Assembly (NCBI GenBank): GCA_002699025.1
Contig: PABA01000076.1
Location: 1 to 47,689 of the forward strand
Reading direction: 5' to 3'
Source of the DNA: Sandaracinus sp.
Lineage (GTDB): Bacteria > Myxococcota_A > Polyangia > Polyangiales > Houyiibacteriaceae
DNA: 47,689 nt
The stretch's first letter is position 1. The number at the start of each line of letters is the position of its first letter. A program made the translations under genes and the position numbers. Shown here piece by piece: positions 6,898-28,051 of this stretch. Below the pieces are notes generated by a model. That model saw nothing but the letters and a program-made list of their open reading frames with translations. It ran no database searches and was not told the DNA's origin.

Positions 6898-9555
6898 TCA
6901 GCGGCAGCTGAGAGGCTGGAAGTCGTCGCCACAGGCGGCCGCCGCCGAGGAGCGCTCGGCGACGCAGCCCGTGCCGGGACACCAGCCGCAGAAGGGGTCG
7001 ACGGCGCAGGACTCGCAGTCCGAGAAGCCCTCGCAGGGGGAGCAGGCGGTGCGGCTCCCGGCCCAGTCGGCCTCGCACTCGTCCATGCGCGCGTCGTTCA
7101 TGCAGCCCATGCCGGGGCACCAGCCGCAGCCGAAGAACTCGAGCGAGTTGCACTCGTCGCAGCTCTCGGCTGCTTCGCATTCGTCGAAGCAGACGGCCGC
7201 CTTCGGCGCACCGCCCGAGGTGGCGCGCGCGTTCGGCGCGAAGGCCGCCATCACGGCCTCGAGCTCGACGCCGATGGAGAGCGCGTCGGCCGTCCCGTCG
7301 CCATCCGTGTCGAGGTCCGGCGCGAGGCGCTCGGCGAGCGGCGCGAACCCTTCGAGCTCGTCGACCGAGAGCGCGTCGTCCCCGTTCGCGTCCATCATCG
7401 CGAGGGCGAGGCCGAGGCCCGCGCTCTCGCAGTCGGCCGGGCAGCCTTGGTCTCTCGCGAGGAGCAGCTCGAAGAGGTCCGCGAGCGGCACGAAGAGGCC
7501 GCCGCGGAGCGCGCTCGCCGGTACGGCACCGCCGAGGCGCGCCTCGAGGAACCACTCCCCGGCGTCGCCCTCGAGGCGGGCCCCCCGGAGCGGGAGCTCG
7601 ATGGGCGTGACGCCCTCGAAGAGCGGGACGCGCAGGACGAAGGTCTCGGCGTTCACGGTGAAGCCCGTCTCCCCGCTGGGGGCGCCCGTGAAGGTCGTCG
7701 GCGTCGTGCCCGGAGCGACCGCGTAGATGCCGCCGCCGGAGGGGTCGAGCGGCTCGGGCTCGCCCTCGTAGACGTCGAGGTCCACGGCGCCGCGCTCGCG
7801 CCGAGTCTGGAGCAGCAGGCGGAGCCGGCCGTCGTCCACGGCGCGCATCAGCGGGCGCGAGAGGGAGACGCCGAGGTCGTCGAAGAGCGCGACCACGTCG
7901 CCGAGGGCGGAGTCGAGCTCGCCGTCCCCGTCGAGATCCAGGCCGAGCGCGTCACGGGAGCGGGGCAGGCGCAGGTAGGAGACGACGTGGCGGTATTCGG
8001 CGTCCTCGCCGATGACGCTCATCCCGGCGTCGTCCTCGGGCTCGGCGGCGTCGCGGGGGCCGGCGTCCCGGAGCCAGAAGGGCGTGTCGTCGTCGTCCTC
8101 GTCGGGCTCGCCGTCGCCGCCCGAGCAGGCCGCGCCGAGCATGCAGAGGCCCGCGAGCAACGCCACGCCGCGCCGACGCCGAAGCGCGAGCAGGCCGAGC
8201 AGGAAGAGGAAGGGCAGCGCCAGGCCGCGCGCCGTGCCGCTGGCCGAGCAGCCGGTCGAAGCGACCGGATCGTCCGGGTCGGCGCCGCCCGGATCGACCG
8301 GGTCGGGCTCGGGCTCGACGGGGCTCGGCACGTAGGGCGCGGGGGCGACCGGCGCGGCCGTCCCGCAGAGGTACGAGGGGTAGGGCGTATCGCGGGTCAG
8401 GATGAGGGGAGGCGGCTCGCGTCCCCCCTCGTACCAGCCGGGTCCGCCGCAGAGTCGGTCGATGGCGCGGTAGGTCAGGGTGTAGTTGACGAAGTTGTCG
8501 GGTCGCTCCTCTTCCTGCTGGTCGATGAGGCAGCCCTCGTCTCCCTCTTCGCCTCCCCTGCGGCAGTAGTGGCCTTGGCGCTGGCTGCCGCGGGGGCAGC
8601 GCGTGGGGTTGTTCGAGACGACGGCGAAGTGCTCGCGGGCCGGCGTGAAGAGGCCGCCGCCCGAGTCGCCGCCGAGGATGTCGATGCGCGCCCGGGCCCA
8701 GAGGGGGGTGAGCTCGAGGAGGGGGGCGCTCTTGAACTTCATCGGCAGGCCGGCCGGGAAGCCGATGCCCAGGACCTCCGTGCCCACGGCGACGCTGGGG
8801 GGCTGACGCGGGTTCGCCATCACCGGCGCGGGCCCGTAGGGCTCGACGACGGGCTGCGGCGCGGTGGCGCTCGGGTCGCGCTTCAGCGTGAAGATCGTGA
8901 TGTCGTTCGAGTAGGCCCGCACCGAGCCGACGCTCGGGTTGTACTGGTGCGCGAGGACCTCGTGGCAGTAATAGACGTCGCGCTCCGTCACGATCGGCGG
9001 CACGGTCCCGCCGGTCTCCCCGCTGGGCAGCTCGTCCGCCGGGACGGCGGGCTCGCGATCGACCTCGCGCCAGTTGAAGACGACCATCGCGTTGTCGCAC
9101 CAGTCCTGGAGGCGCTCGAGGATCTCGGTACGTTCGGCTGCGGTCGGCTCCTCTTCGGGCGTGGGCACGCCGATGCAGTGGCCGGCCGTCGCGAAGAGGT
9201 TCCCGTCGAGGAGCGTGCCCGAGCAGTAGCCGACGCGCGGCTGGCAGAGGAAGGGCTGGTCATCGCAGAAGCCCTGCTCCCAGCGGGTGCTCCCCGTGGC
9301 GAGCTGGGCGTCCTGGGGCGTCGCCCGGAAGCCGAGCGAGCTCCGGCGCGCGAGCACGCCGATGTGACGCTGGCCGAAGGCCTGCAGGTCCGGGCTGACC
9401 TCGCGCCAGTCTTCGCGATCGTCCGCGCCCCAGATCGTCGCCTGCTCGGTGCCGGCGACGGGCTCGGGGCTGGCGCAGGCGCCGAGGAGGGCGGCCGCCG
9501 CGAGGGCGGGCAGGGCGCGTGGCATCCAGGTGGGGTCGTGGGGGTGTCGGTGCAC
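6898..9555 (-). CDS. Trypsin-like protease lipoprotein, MYXO-CTERM-like tail, fused to a second lipoprotein
   Basis: One 885-codon frame that reads like two proteins joined. Residues 1-27 are a signal with lipobox LLGAC (Cys27). Residues 60-370 are a chymotrypsin-fold protease: His126 in TAGHC, Asp218 in SNDIT, Ser298 in GGDSGGG. Residues 435-463 have the MYXO-CTERM layout: Cys436, hydrophobic helix, then four arginines. Normally that ends a protein, but the frame continues straight into a new lipoprotein-type leader with Cys477 in LGAAC. An Asp-rich region follows, with three EF-hand/dockerin-like loops (DLDGDGELDS, DANGDDALS, DTDGDGTAD) and two Cys-rich PSI-like modules (FFGCGWCPGMGC, FCGWCPGTGC). 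GTG at 9555 is chosen because GGAGG stands eight bases upstream; ATG at 9525 is the alternative. A lost stop codon, a sequencing error or a true fusion are all possible. Confidence 0.8.
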   Translation of the reverse strand: MHRHPHDPTWMPRALPALAAAALLGACASPEPVAGTEQATIWGADDREDWREVSPDLQAFGQRHIGVLARRSSLGFRATPQDAQLATGSTRWEQGFCDDQPFLCQPRVGYCSGTLLDGNLFATAGHCIGVPTPEEEPTAAERTEILERLQDWCDNAMVVFNWREVDREPAVPADELPSGETGGTVPPIVTERDVYYCHEVLAHQYNPSVGSVRAYSNDITIFTLKRDPSATAPQPVVEPYGPAPVMANPRQPPSVAVGTEVLGIGFPAGLPMKFKSAPLLELTPLWARARIDILGGDSGGGLFTPAREHFAVVSNNPTRCPRGSQRQGHYCRRGGEEGDEGCLIDQQEEERPDNFVNYTLTYRAIDRLCGGPGWYEGGREPPPLILTRDTPYPSYLCGTAAPVAPAPYVPSPVEPEPDPVDPGGADPDDPVASTGCSASGTARGLALPFLFLLGLLALRRRRGVALLAGLCMLGAACSGGDGEPDEDDDDTPFWLRDAGPRDAAEPEDDAGMSVIGEDAEYRHVVSYLRLPRSRDALGLDLDGDGELDSALGDVVALFDDLGVSLSRPLMRAVDDGRLRLLLQTRRERGAVDLDVYEGEPEPLDPSGGGIYAVAPGTTPTTFTGAPSGETGFTVNAETFVLRVPLFEGVTPIELPLRGARLEGDAGEWFLEARLGGAVPASALRGGLFVPLADLFELLLARDQGCPADCESAGLGLALAMMDANGDDALSVDELEGFAPLAERLAPDLDTDGDGTADALSIGVELEAVMAAFAPNARATSGGAPKAAVCFDECEAAESCDECNSLEFFGCGWCPGMGCMNDARMDECEADWAGSRTACSPCEGFSDCESCAVDPFCGWCPGTGCVAERSSAAAACGDDFQPLSCR

Positions 9556-22782: not shown

Positions 22783-23289
22783 CTAGCGGGCGTCCATCGG
22801 GACGCCCTGGACCCAATCGGTCCGCTCCAGCCCGTTCGCCTCGTGGCAGTCGATGCAGAAGCCGAGCTCGCCGCTCATCTGCAGCGCGCCGCCGGCGTCG
22901 TACATGCCCCACCACCAGTCGTCGGTGCGGGCGACGCCGCCCTCGGCGCCCTTCACCATCACCGTGTAGGCCGTGAGCGCGCCCTCTTCGTCGAGCATCT
23001 CCTTCACGATCATCGTGAACTCGGGGAAGTCTTCGATCGCCGCCGACGAGTCGTCCGGGTCGAGGTCGCGGTAGAGGTCGACGCCCTCGTTCGACACCCA
23101 CACGTTCACGGTCTCGGCCGCGTGCTGCGACTCGAAGGGCGTGGCGTTGATGCGCGTGAACTCGCCGCTCGTCTCGAGCCCGGCGAGGCGCATGGTGATC
23201 GTCTCTTCGTCCATGCCCCCGGCGTCGGAGGAGCAGGCGCCCGCGAGGGCGAACAGCGCGGCGAGCGCGAGGGGGATCGGGGTCTTCAT
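22783..23289 (-). CDS. Cytochrome P460-like c-haem lipoprotein (operon gene 5)
   Basis: A 168-residue lipoprotein: signal with lipobox LAGAC (Cys19) and a compact domain ending in a c-type haem motif Cys145-x2-Cys148-His149 (CIDCH). The preceding WWWGMYDAGGALQMSGELGF pattern and size match the cytochrome P460 family, which binds haem c and oxidises hydroxylamine or handles NO-related species. The special haem-crosslinking lysine of true P460 cannot be confirmed here. ATG at 23289 overlaps the upstream TGA (ATGA) and has GGAGAAG before it. It is the last gene of the operon with the Cys-rich peptide. Confidence 0.85.
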   Translation of the reverse strand: MKTPIPLALAALFALAGACSSDAGGMDEETITMRLAGLETSGEFTRINATPFESQHAAETVNVWVSNEGVDLYRDLDPDDSSAAIEDFPEFTMIVKEMLDEEGALTAYTVMVKGAEGGVARTDDWWWGMYDAGGALQMSGELGFCIDCHEANGLERTDWVQGVPMDAR

Positions 23290-24344
23290 CGTTCTTCTCC
23301 GTGGGTCAGTGCAAGCGCGTGGATCTCCGACGCGCGGCAGGGGGCCAGGGCGTCGGCGAAGCTCTCTCGGGTGGGCGCGTCCATGTGGTCCGCGAGCCAG
23401 CGGCGCGAGGCGCAGGCGCCCCGGGCGCGCGGCTCGTCCGAGGCGAGCCCCGCCTCGAAGTCGAGCGACGCCGTCGGGAGCGCTCCCTCGGCGCAGCGGG
23501 CGACCAGGCCGCCGCGCCCGTCGGCGTCGTGGAGCGCTTCGCTCCCGTCGGGGCAGCGCGCGCGGACGGCGGGCCGGAGCAGGTTGGGATCGCGCGGACG
23601 GTATCGCTCGAGCGGCTGCGCGTCACCCATCACGGCGAGCGGCGAGTAGAAGCCGTCGCCGTCGGTGGCGCGGAAGGGCACGCCTTCGCCGACGCGGGCG
23701 CGCGCCGGGCGGCCCTTCGCGTGGCAGGCGACGCAGCCGCTCCGCGACGCGAGCAGTGAGGCCGCCCGCTCGGCGCCGACGCCGCCGTGGGCCCGGCCGC
23801 CGCCAGCGCGGATCAGCTCGGCCAGCGCCGCGTGGGCCGCCCGCTCGAGCCCGGGCGTGGCCTCGCTCCACTCGTAGCCGACGAGGCGCGCCCCCGCGCC
23901 CGGCCGCTCGGGCCGGAGCAGGCGCATGTGCCGCAGGCCGCCTTCGCCGATGCGGACGCCGCGCACATCGCCGACGACCCAGCGCCCATCCACGCGAAGC
24001 CGTTCGACCCGGTCCGCCTCGGCGCCCTCGGGCCAGCGGAGCGCGCCGGCCTCGTCGGTCGTGAAGCGCGCGCCGACCGGCAGGCGCACCCAGATCTCGA
24101 TGCGGCTCCCGCCGTCGCGGCGCGTCGGCGGCGCGAGCGGCGTGACGAGCTCCACGAAGCCCTCGCGCGACCAGTGCGCGTCGGGGGCCTCGATCACCAG
24201 GCGCCGGCTCCCGGGCCCGAGCTCGGGGTGGCTCCAGCGCCCCTCCTCCGACAGCCCGAGCGTGGCGCCGACGAGCGCGGCGAGCGCGAGCAGGGCGAGC
24301 TGCCTCGCGCCAGTCTTCGGGCGCGGCGCCCTCGGCGCGCTCAT
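23286..24344 (-). CDS. Exported protein with one c-type haem motif (operon gene 4)
   Basis: A 352-residue protein with a basic N-terminus and a hydrophobic leader (residues 14-31), so it is exported or N-terminally anchored. It carries one haem motif, Cys204-x2-Cys207-His208, in GCVACHAKG. Residues 45-165 look beta-rich (REGFVELVTPLAP, IEIWVRLPVGARF), and more cysteines lie near the C-terminus. I do not recognise the family; the one-haem architecture suggests electron transfer or haem-dependent chemistry. ATG at 24344 overlaps the preceding stop as ATGA, and the 3' end overlaps the P460-like gene in the same way. Confidence 0.8.
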   Translation of the reverse strand: MSAPRAPRPKTGARQLALLALAALVGATLGLSEEGRWSHPELGPGSRRLVIEAPDAHWSREGFVELVTPLAPPTRRDGGSRIEIWVRLPVGARFTTDEAGALRWPEGAEADRVERLRVDGRWVVGDVRGVRIGEGGLRHMRLLRPERPGAGARLVGYEWSEATPGLERAAHAALAELIRAGGGRAHGGVGAERAASLLASRSGCVACHAKGRPARARVGEGVPFRATDGDGFYSPLAVMGDAQPLERYRPRDPNLLRPAVRARCPDGSEALHDADGRGGLVARCAEGALPTASLDFEAGLASDEPRARGACASRRWLADHMDAPTRESFADALAPCRASEIHALALTHGEER

Positions 24345-25075
24345 AGGAGCCCCCGGCGCCGGAGCGTCGCCCGGCCCGCCTCGAGGATCGCCGGGCCGAT
24401 GGCCTCCCGCGCCGCCGCGTCCAGCTCGCCCCAGCCGTCGGCCAGGGCGGCCAGCTCCGCCGCGCCGGGGAAGAGCCAGCGCGGCCGGCCGCTGGCGGGC
24501 GCGCGGTGGAGCAGCACCGTAGTCGGCGCCGGCGCGGGCTCGAGGGGCCGCTCGCCCTGCCGCGCGTCGCGGACCCAGCCGGGCACGTCGAAGGTGTAGC
24601 GCCGCACGATCGCGGGCCCCTTCACGGCGCCGCGGGGAGCCGGCGCGCCCACCACGCGCAGGCGGTGGAGCGCTTCCTCCCAGTCGGCGACCTCGACCAC
24701 CCAGGCTGGCGTCTCCCGCGCGCGCAGGGTCTCCGGGAAGCCGAGGGCCAGCGCGGCGTAGTCCGCCTCGGCGCCGCGCTCGCGCCCGAGGTGGGCGCGG
24801 AGGGCCGCATCGAAGCGCTGCTCGCCGAGGGCGTGGCGCGTCGCGACGTAGAGCTCGCGGAGGATCCGCGCGCGCCCGGCGTGGACCATGCGGACGACCC
24901 GCGCGAGGCGGGCCCGGTCGCTGGACGGTCCGCAGCGCGCCTCCAGCTCGGCGGCGTCGAGCTCACCGCGCAAGGCGCCCCGCATGGCGTCGAAGAAGGC
25001 CGAGAGGCGCGGGCTCGGCGCGCGGGGGGCGCGGGGGGCGCGCGCGTCTCGCCGCGGGTCGGAGTCGCTCAACAC
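24341..25075 (-). CDS. DUF2063-type partner protein (BufC-like, operon gene 3)
   Basis: A 244-residue protein placed directly after a DUF692 gene, the position of the HvfC/BufC (DUF2063, putative DNA-binding domain) partner. The N-terminal SAFFDAMRGALRGE and the helical VRMVHAGRARILRELYVATR region fit that family's start, and ALALGFPETLRARETPAWV fits its middle. In related systems this protein binds the precursor and assists the MNIO enzyme; I infer the same here. GTG at 25075 follows GGAGG by seven bases and overlaps the DUF692 stop; TTG at 25072 is an alternative. The sequence is divergent, so family assignment is moderate. Confidence 0.72.
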   Translation of the reverse strand: MLSDSDPRRDARAPRAPRAPSPRLSAFFDAMRGALRGELDAAELEARCGPSSDRARLARVVRMVHAGRARILRELYVATRHALGEQRFDAALRAHLGRERGAEADYAALALGFPETLRARETPAWVVEVADWEEALHRLRVVGAPAPRGAVKGPAIVRRYTFDVPGWVRDARQGERPLEPAPAPTTVLLHRAPASGRPRWLFPGAAELAALADGWGELDAAAREAIGPAILEAGRATLRRRGLL

Positions 25076-25929
25076 GGCGACGCCTCCATGCGCGGTGCCA
25101 TCGCCCGGCGGGAGGACCGCTCGGCCAGCGCGCGTTCGACGACCTCGCGCACCCGGTCGGCCTCGTCGAGCACGCGGTCGAGGGGTGGGATGTTCGTGTC
25201 CCACTCGAGCAGCACGGGCACCTCGCCCGTCCGCCGCAGCGCGCGCGCGAGCAGGTCGAAGACCTCGGCGCGGATCGGGTGGCCGTGGTCGTCCACGCAG
25301 AGGTCGCCGAGGTCGAGGTGGCCCGCCACGTGGATGCGCGTCGTGCGCTCGAGGGGCATGGCCTCGAGGAGCGCCACCGGGTCCGTGCCGTGGTTGAAGG
25401 CGCTCACGAAGACGTTGTTCACGTCGAGGAGCAGGCCGCAGTCGGCCTCCTCGACGACGGCCGAGACGAACTCGCCCTCGCCCATCTCCGAGCCGGGCAT
25501 GGCCACGTAGGTGCTCGGGTTCTCCACGTCGAGCGGGCGCCCGAGGCGCTCGGCGGCCTCGCGGATGCGGGCGGCGGCCCAGCGGACGGCGTCCTCGTGG
25601 AAGGGGAGCGCCAGGAGGTCGTGCGAGTGGAAGCCGCCGACGTTCGAAAAGCTGAGGTGCTCCGTGTAGCGCTCGATGCCGAGCCGATCGAGGAGGCCGC
25701 GCAGGGCGCGGAAGAGGTCGGGGTCGAAGGCATCGGGCCCGCCGAGCGACATCGACACGCCGTGGGCGCCGATGGGAAAGCGCTCCGCGGCGCGCGCGAG
25801 GGCGCGCGAGAAGGGCCCGGCCTTCCCGAGGAAGTTCTCCGGGACGATCTCGAGCCAGTCGATGCGCCGATCCGTCTCGAGGACGGCCTCGGCCAGCGGC
25901 CGGCGAAGCCCGATGCCGACCCCGCGCAT
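25069..25929 (-). CDS. bufB: DUF692 / MNIO-family peptide-modifying enzyme (BufB-like)
   Basis: A 286-residue TIM-barrel protein of DUF692, the multinuclear non-haem iron oxidative (MNIO) family that includes MbnB and bufferin synthase BufB. Family blocks are GVGIGLRRPL, DWLEIVPENFLG, GAHGVSMSLGG (His56), YTEHLSFS (His91), RPLDVENPSTY (Glu136), GLLLDVNNVFVSAFNHG (Asp169, His180), RIHVAGH (His200) and LLEWDTNIP (Glu242). These polar residues lie where the iron ligands of the family are expected. Known members oxidatively convert cysteines of a precursor peptide to azole or oxazolone/thioamide groups. The ATG at 25929 shares its A with the TGA of the Cys-rich peptide gene, so the two are translationally coupled. 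Confidence 0.93.
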   Translation of the reverse strand: MRGVGIGLRRPLAEAVLETDRRIDWLEIVPENFLGKAGPFSRALARAAERFPIGAHGVSMSLGGPDAFDPDLFRALRGLLDRLGIERYTEHLSFSNVGGFHSHDLLALPFHEDAVRWAAARIREAAERLGRPLDVENPSTYVAMPGSEMGEGEFVSAVVEEADCGLLLDVNNVFVSAFNHGTDPVALLEAMPLERTTRIHVAGHLDLGDLCVDDHGHPIRAEVFDLLARALRRTGEVPVLLEWDTNIPPLDRVLDEADRVREVVERALAERSSRRAMAPRMEASPC

Positions 25930-26150
25930 CAGCCGCAACCCGCGCAGCCGGCGTCGCTCCCGGGGCAGCCCGCGCAGCCCGCGTCCGTGGCCGGGCAGCC
26001 CGGGCAACCGGCGCAGCCCGCGTCGGCGGCGGGGCAGCCTGCGCAGCCCGCGTCGACCATGGCTTCGCCGTCGTCGTCGCCGCAGCCGCTCACGGCGACC
26101 GCGCCCGCGACCAGCGCGACCTGGAGGATCTCGAGGATGTCCTTCTGCAT
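25929..26150 (-). CDS. Cys-rich repeat lipoprotein-like peptide, candidate RiPP precursor
   Basis: A 73-residue peptide. The leader (1-22) is hydrophobic with a lipobox-like VSGC (Cys23), followed by an acidic spacer. The rest (33-73) has four DAGCAGC units at 33-39, 43-49, 56-62 and 66-72, joined by Pro/Ala/Gly linkers with an extra Cys52. Ten cysteines in all, nine in the repeat region. ATG at 26150 has GGGAGAG upstream; the stop overlaps the DUF692 start. Position and Cys content match BufA-type precursors modified by DUF692 enzymes, but this is not the usual DUF2282 BufA sequence. Signal peptidase II processing would leave a lipid-anchored, Cys-rich, possibly metal-binding product; that is inference. 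Confidence 0.85.
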   Translation of the reverse strand: MQKDILEILQVALVAGAVAVSGCGDDDGEAMVDAGCAGCPAADAGCAGCPGCPATDAGCAGCPGSDAGCAGCG

Positions 26151-26272: not shown

Positions 26273-26340
26273 AACAGCGCTCATCTGGCGCAGACAGGGC
26301 CCGATGGAGCCCGTCTTCGCGCCCCCAACGCCATCCGGAC

Positions 26341-26637
26341 GGCGTCCGCAGGACTCCCGAGCGGCGTCCGCAGGACTCCCGAGCGCCGGACTCCCGGTGT
26401 CCGCAGGACTCCGGTTGCCAGCGGTGCGCCCCAAAGCTGAACTCAGCTCGCTCGGGAGCCACGGTGTCCGCAGGACTCCCCAGTGTCCGCAGGGCTCCCG
26501 GCGCGTCCGCAGGACTCCCGGGTACGCGTCCGCAGGACTCCCGGGTACGCGTCCGCAGGACTCCCGAGCGGCGTCCGCAGGACTCCCGGGTAAGCGTCCG
26601 CAGGACTCCCGGGTACGCGTCCGCAGGACTCCCGTGC
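26341..26637. repeat. Tandem array of TCCGCAGGACTCCCG, same family as the window ends
   Basis: About eleven copies of TCCGCAGGACTCC. Copies from about 26506 on keep roughly 22-23-bp spacing; earlier ones are irregular and interrupted at 26412-26462 by unique sequence with the palindrome AGCTGA-AC-TCAGCT (26435-26448). The core matches the array at 1-300. It fills the gap between the operon promoter and the small exported protein gene; no gene is seen in it. Confidence 0.85.
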
Positions 26638-26655
26638 GGCGGCGCCTCCGCGTGC

Positions 26656-26859: not shown

Positions 26860-27873
<1,014 letters not shown>

Positions 27874-28051
27874 GGGCGTCAGTCTGGGGCGAGCGCGCGG
27901 CGGCGCCAACGCCCCCTCGGGAAACGCTGCGGGGGCGCTGCGGCGCCGCACGCGTCCGTCCGCCGGCTCGGCGACCCCCGCTCGTCGCGGAGGGACCGCT
28001 CCGCTCCGAGCCATGCGGACCGACCCGCGCGGCGGACCGGCCGGCCCCGGG

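Follow-up and report, generated by a model that had tools for sequence, protein, structure and literature searches.

The 47,689-nucleotide stretch analysed here (the window), which represents contig PABA01000076.1 of Sandaracinus sp., carries an operon of five overlapping genes on the minus strand, read from 26150 to 22783. In the 5' to 3' direction of the operon these encode a cysteine-rich precursor peptide (25929..26150), an MNIO (DUF692) modification enzyme (25069..25929), a DUF2063-like MNIO partner of the PME1 type (24341..25075), a membrane-anchored c-type haem protein with a CVACH motif, named CYT4 (23286..24344), and a cytochrome P460 lipoprotein (22783..23289). Consecutive genes overlap by 1 (TGATG), 7 (GTGTTGA), 4 (ATGA) and 4 (ATGA) bases; the MNIO gene begins with the ATG of TGATG and the partner gene with the GTG of GTGTTGA. 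The order and the overlaps agree with the original prediction, made from the letters of the window, and its combination of an MNIO, a DUF2063-type partner and a cysteine-rich precursor is borne out by PF05114, by PF09836 and the structure 3DEE, and by the peptide sequence. The small cysteine-rich peptide had been recognised correctly, but its lipobox, leader and Gly-Cys-Pro motif, and the fusions of such precursors to P460 in relatives, had been missed; likewise, the product of the last gene is indeed a CxxCH haem protein, but it had not been identified as a cytochrome P460.

The precursor peptide (P0001, 73 amino acids with 10 Cys), encoded directly 5' of the MNIO gene, comprises the leader MQKDILEIL, a hydrophobic stretch, the lipobox AVSGC and then DAGCAGCP repeats containing both Cys-Ala and Cys-Pro, with nine of its ten cysteines located in the core that follows the lipobox (lipoboxes and signal peptides were judged by eye from sequence). 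It has no Pfam or NCBIfam family match, and its sequence contains no EGKCG, ECKG or CPxCGxG motif. A lipoprotein-like precursor lies directly before the MNIO gene in all 16 loci, described below, where CYT4 and MNIO are linked. The common leader of these precursors reads M, K, K/T, often D, L/I, x, x, I/V, L, often E, and is followed by a hydrophobic stretch, in most cases a lipobox-like Cys, and 2 to 17 core cysteines. Gly precedes 122 of the 123 core cysteines of the 16 loci, the next residue being Pro (104), Ala (11) or Gly (8), and the position three before Cys is occupied by Asp, Glu, Thr or Ser in 83 of them. The precursor of locus L019 is an exception, with GAGCGG repeats, while in those of L088, L089, L090 and L092 every core Cys precedes Pro. 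The L088 precursor (7117-7779) contains ten AGCPGT-type repeats and then a Cys-rich C-terminal stretch of about 60 residues with no Pfam match.

The MNIO of the window matches PF05114 with 313.6 bits (cut-off 25; E 1.2e-93), and phmmer relates it to 3bww, TglH (8hci) and MbnB (7dz9). The metal-ligand motifs, at positions of the H56, E136, D169, H200, D213, H215 and E242 type, are invariant across the 47 MNIOs compared. The enzyme remains below the equivalog cut-offs for BufB (279.9 of 310 bits), HvfB (275.5 of 360), MbnB (36.4 of 325) and ChrH (46.1 of 600). Its partner scores 26.4 bits against PF09836 (E 8.8e-6), slightly below the cut-off of 27.2, and is assigned to DUF2063 because its relatives exceed this cut-off and the profile of the partner family matches 3DEE, a solved PME1 protein from Neisseria gonorrhoeae (E 9.4e-6). 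No export signal is visible in either the MNIO or its partner.

The last gene of the operon codes for a protein of 168 amino acids (P0005) with the lipobox LAGAC and a CIDCH motif near the C-terminus, identified as a cytochrome P460 by its match to PF16694 (29.4 bits, cut-off 27). Alignment with 7ead, 9hrk, 6hiu and 6amg places its Lys96 at Lys106 of 6amg, the haem cross-link site (Phe61 in 7ead), and this lysine is invariant in P0005 and its 14 homologues (15/15). According to the residue table for the cross-link, carboxylate and capping sites (PMC11928373), the distal proton-relay carboxylate of hydroxylamine oxidase-type P460s is absent from P0005 and is replaced in nearly all homologues, the corresponding position (Ala131 in NsP460) being Thr in P0005 and most homologues and Ala in the fusion proteins described below. 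NsP460, which has the cross-link and lacks the carboxylate, does not oxidise hydroxylamine (PMC11928373), and thus no hydroxylamine oxidation is expected of the operon P460 from its sequence. The capping position is His in the P0005 family; as a hallmark of linkage to an MNIO this residue was discarded, because a His stands there in many of the order's P460-like proteins that are unlinked. A single frame of genome G042 (contig C320, L098 and L110) encodes three tandem P460-like domains, each with a CxxCH motif and the preceding His, and no MNIO is present in the stretch read.

The N-terminus of CYT4 (352 amino acids) is a membrane helix in the window and resembles a lipobox in several homologues; the family, as yet unnamed, has one CxxCH motif and four further conserved cysteines. 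It has no match in Pfam or NCBIfam and no convincing relative in the PDB by sequence. A model of the fragment comprising residues 42-262 (mean predicted local distance difference test score, pLDDT, 73) is matched best by the P460 of Methylococcus capsulatus (6hiu, Z 5.7 over 113 aligned residues; 9hrk, Z 5.6 over 116; root mean square deviation 4.1 each), with the next chain about one unit lower (Z 4.7), and profile-profile comparison with the P460 family gives a colinear alignment with P 0.0013, though a probability of only 19%. With the whole model, unrelated helix-grip and LOV folds ranked above P460, which came top only with the trimmed fragment, and Foldseek found no match to the fragment below E 0.001. 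Together, the model comparisons suggest that the core of CYT4 may have a P460-like fold.

CYT4, which belongs to no known family, was used as bait for gene neighbourhoods in Myxococcota, where many genomes are incomplete, and the fetched loci were scanned with profiles built for this analysis. It occurs in 13 of 194 relatives, in 13 of 184 genomes of the order and in 13 of a 379-genome sample of the phylum, these samples overlapping. An MNIO gene adjoins CYT4 in 16 of the 22 CYT4 loci, including the window, and is accompanied by the DUF2063-like partner in all 16 and by a P460 domain in 14, the other two being L091, which is cut by a contig end, and L093. Genomes of the order mostly contain one to a few MNIO genes per several million bases, so that adjacency of this frequency by chance is out of the question. 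The conserved neighbourhood in related genomes, on which the original prediction had staked itself, is therefore present. The order precursor-MNIO-partner-CYT4-P460 is found in the window and L018, CYT4-precursor-MNIO-partner-P460 in L019, L027, L089, L090, L092 and L094, and P460-CYT4-precursor-MNIO-partner in L023 and L088; in L028 the P460 gene is divergent from the others, and L024, L025 and L030 have a precursor-P460 fusion followed by MNIO, partner and CYT4. The precursor-MNIO-partner block is constant throughout these arrangements. No further conserved operon member was found across the 16 loci, only LysR-type regulators near three of them. A scan of a genome collection with a tighter CYT4 alignment returned five loci, four of them from Polyangia, Myxococcota, Myxococcales or Polyangiaceae and one from an uncultured bacterium.

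No MNIO lies near six of the 22 CYT4 loci; among these, the contigs of L022 and L095 are short or cut, and L020 is a near-copy of L021. The CYT4 homologues of the latter two (L020, 7197-8180; L021, 7071-8054) come from two genomes of one genus, whose sole MNIO is encoded elsewhere and has an SCSG-type precursor, which indicates that CYT4 can exist without the rest of the module. In the window, a tandem array of about seven copies of the 23-base unit GTCCGCAGGACTCCCGGGTACGC (26340-26641) is located just 5' of the operon, and the upstream neighbour on the same strand (26860-27900) encodes a Rieske protein with a DUF5914 domain, which lies outside the conserved set.

In the three fusion proteins (L024, L025 and L030), the leader, lipobox and GCP repeats of the precursor are joined in the same reading frame to a P460 domain that has CxxCH and HDFVYT close to its end. 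These domains match Pfam weakly and below the cut-off (E 0.0036 to 0.032), while their strong match to the in-family profile was obtained with a profile built with the fusions included. No separate P460 gene was found in these three clusters, and their MNIOs group together in the tree (95/82), so the fusion looks like a single event retained in three genera. The fusion, like the precursor motif, the lipobox and the conserved gene set, can be read directly from the sequences; nothing else points as strongly to joint action of the Cys-repeat peptide and the P460 haem.

A tree was built of 47 MNIOs, namely, the 16 linked to CYT4 and 31 others of the order, including the second MNIO of the same genome. 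A single branch separates the 16 linked enzymes from the rest (support 91/94), as it does in 94% of bootstrap trees and in 0 of 500 shuffles. In a second tree of 87 rows, to which 40 further MNIO loci were added, they still form one group (Shimodaira-Hasegawa-like approximate likelihood ratio test, SH-aLRT, 95), standing beside 27 MNIOs whose legible precursors are mostly of the SCG type. CYT4, P460 and GCP precursors were found at none of the 70 other MNIO loci of the order, the flanks of which were covered to about 1.5 kb on each side for the first 30 and to about 3 kb, contig permitting, for the other 40; legible precursors there are of the ECKG type (bufferin-like) or the SCG type. The Arg-Arg pair involved in substrate choice in FonB is kept in 15 of the 16 linked MNIOs versus 1 of the 31 others, and the position of FonB Phe250 is Thr, Gln, Asn, Ala, Ser, His or Leu in linked MNIOs, whereas most others have Glu or Asp. 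The second MNIO operon of the same genome (L002, contig C144, 713-2844) encodes a lipobox precursor with EASCGGEASCG repeats and a DUF2063-like partner and resembles captophorin (HvfA-like) clusters, with no haem genes inside the locus; a third, partial PF05114 match (profile positions 100-234) lies in a 361-residue open frame at L003 (contig C156, 1501-1908).

The gene set differs from the known bufferin operons, as the original prediction had stated and as the comparison of the 16 loci with the 70 others confirms, while its suggestion that the system belongs to the bufferin/methanobactin family is not upheld. On the equivalog scores and the precursor motifs, the system counts as neither bufferin nor oxazolin, methanobactin or chryseobasin. 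In the methanobactin system (MbnABC) an MNIO and its partner also act on peptide cysteines, and the haem proteins MbnH and MbnP are encoded near some methanobactin operons; however, the haem proteins found here are not of the MauG type, and the methanobactin precursor has no lipobox. Bufferins Buf1 and Buf2 share with the present loci the order precursor-MNIO-DUF2063 and the signal peptide, some are predicted lipoproteins, and a Buf1-cytochrome c-sulfatase fusion has been reported among them (PMC12452194). However, P0001 has no family match, neither DUF2282 nor a Cys-Lys motif is present here (Buf2 being judged by motif), and the cytochromes are of other families. Chryseobasin-type (ChrH) peptides, which also occur in Myxococcota, and DAG-RiPPs (PMC12636315) offer Cys-Pro within the CPxCGxG substrate motif and lipidated MNIO products, but ChrH is a distinct subfamily, CPxCGxG is missing here and the partner is of the DUF2063 type. 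As in captophorin-type clusters (fontiphorin, oxazolin/HvfA and gonophorin; PMC13097082), a Cys-rich signal-peptide precursor with Cys repeats precedes the MNIO and a DUF2063 partner follows it; the FonB Arg-Arg pair is shared, and the frequent acidic or hydroxyl residue three before Cys recalls the Glu of EGKCG. Unlike captophorins, and oxazolin in particular, the present precursors carry (A/G)GC(P/A) instead of EGKCG repeats, the Phe250 position varies, two haem proteins and P460 fusions are present and no DoxX was seen. Finally, P0005 resembles the cytochrome P460/c'-beta superfamily (PMC11928373) in its PF16694 match, C-terminal CxxCH and cross-link Lys, and differs in the missing carboxylate, the capping His and its linkage or fusion to an MNIO substrate.

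In its precursor motif, separate MNIO group, haem partners and fusions, the system is new with respect to known MNIO-PME1 RiPP (ribosomally synthesised and post-translationally modified peptide) systems. No paper was found that describes this combination, or an MNIO together with cytochrome P460, in a search outside which lay the supplementary tables of surveys, where single precursors may be listed without comment. The MNIO landscape paper, which describes the Buf1-cytochrome c-sulfatase fusion, mentions neither myxobacteria nor P460; it reports hundreds of unclassified signal-peptide precursors preceding MNIO genes, and single members may therefore sit unremarked in survey tables.

In our view the operon probably yields a RiPP-lipoprotein, an MNIO-modified peptide held by a lipid anchor, which acts outside the cytoplasm together with two c-type haem proteins. 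The peptide is most likely a captophorin-like RiPP that is modified in the cytoplasm, exported and probably binds Cu(I), with the membrane-attached haem proteins as its post-export partners. Attachment of c-type haem takes place outside the cytoplasm, and neither the MNIO nor its partner shows an export signal; modification should thus come first, followed by export, lipidation and the encounter with the haem proteins. The role originally proposed for the latter, in the MNIO chemistry or in export, is rejected on the same grounds of compartment, each having its own signal anchor or lipobox. Inside the cytoplasm, the MNIO and its DUF2063 partner would oxidise the Gly-Cys-(Pro/Ala) sites of the precursor, with the short conserved leader as the probable recognition element. 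Sec would then export the precursor, and lipidation of the lipobox Cys would fix it to a membrane. The modified cysteines, in the simplest case 5-thiooxazoles or a comparable product of four-electron oxidation, may then bind Cu(I) or another soft metal. The membrane-attached P460 and CYT4 could assist the tethered peptide in redox reactions or with small ligands, for example by reducing Cu(II) or by handling nitric oxide (NO) or peroxide. Cu-binding 5-thiooxazoles are the products of characterised MNIO-PME1 pairs (PMC13097082), and the lipidation of MNIO products has been proven (PMC12636315), so that a lipid-anchored thiooxazole-like metallophore would be the simplest product.

Several points weigh against this reading. 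We infer that the precursor cysteines are modified, and likewise the type of modification, the bound metal and what the haems do. Pro was accepted at none of the sites tested in FonBC, a well-studied thiooxazole enzyme and the closest type to have been characterised (PMC13097082), so that the modification at the Cys-Pro sites may be a different one. Moreover, CYT4 has no neighbouring MNIO at L020, L021, L026, L029 and L096 and is not strictly dedicated to the module, no P460 is present in the stretch read of L093, and no conserved copper gene was seen next to the loci. The oxazolone-thioamide route and one of the two routes proposed for 5-thiooxazole need an N-H after Cys (PMC13097082), which Pro does not have. 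We entertain, tentatively, a distinct class of RiPPs in which Gly-Cys-Pro would be oxidised by the separate MNIO group along a route unable to use the azetidinone intermediate. The product would be a chain of metal thiolates on a lipid tether, which would exchange electrons with a P460-type haem and, in some species, would itself tether the haem protein.

It appears unlikely that the locus is an ordinary captophorin operon for copper buffering. In that case the modified peptide would hold copper at the membrane on its own, and the two haem genes, with a role in stress or respiration, would share its regulon but have no direct contact with it. Characterised MNIO-PME1 products do bind copper and arise in metal or oxidative stress (PMC13097082), and CYT4 can stand without an MNIO, but the precursor is fused to P460 in three genomes, and within the order CYT4 and P460 accompany only this MNIO group, at none of the 70 other MNIO loci. 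We hold it quite improbable that the operon is a haem-enzyme system directed at nitrogen oxides or peroxide, in which the peptide would chiefly provide the P460 haem with a lipid tether and a redox or metal relay, and copper storage would not be the aim. The fusions, in which the repeats form the N-terminal tether of P460, the conserved Lys that marks a cross-linked haem and the ability of P460s to bind NO and related ligands (PMC11928373) would suit this role; on the other hand, nearly all homologues have Thr or Ala in place of the carboxylate that hydroxylamine oxidation requires, and up to 17 cysteines exceed the needs of a tether. That the peptide is no substrate and binds metal by plain thiols while the MNIO modifies something else could draw on the inferred nature of the modification and on the rejection of Pro by FonBC (PMC13097082), but is very improbable, as the precursor occupies the position of the substrate gene in bufABC in 16 of 16 loci, its motif is nearly invariant and no second Cys-rich candidate is seen in front of the 16 MNIOs.

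If the lipid-anchored, MNIO-modified peptide is indeed the product, the precursors of L088, L089, L090 and L092, in which only GCP sites occur, would be natural substrates without the N-H and would bear on the mechanism of 5-thiooxazole formation. The precursor-P460 fusions link MNIO peptides to haem proteins, and would provide a concrete partner for the P460s that lack the hydroxylamine-oxidase carboxylate (PMC11928373).

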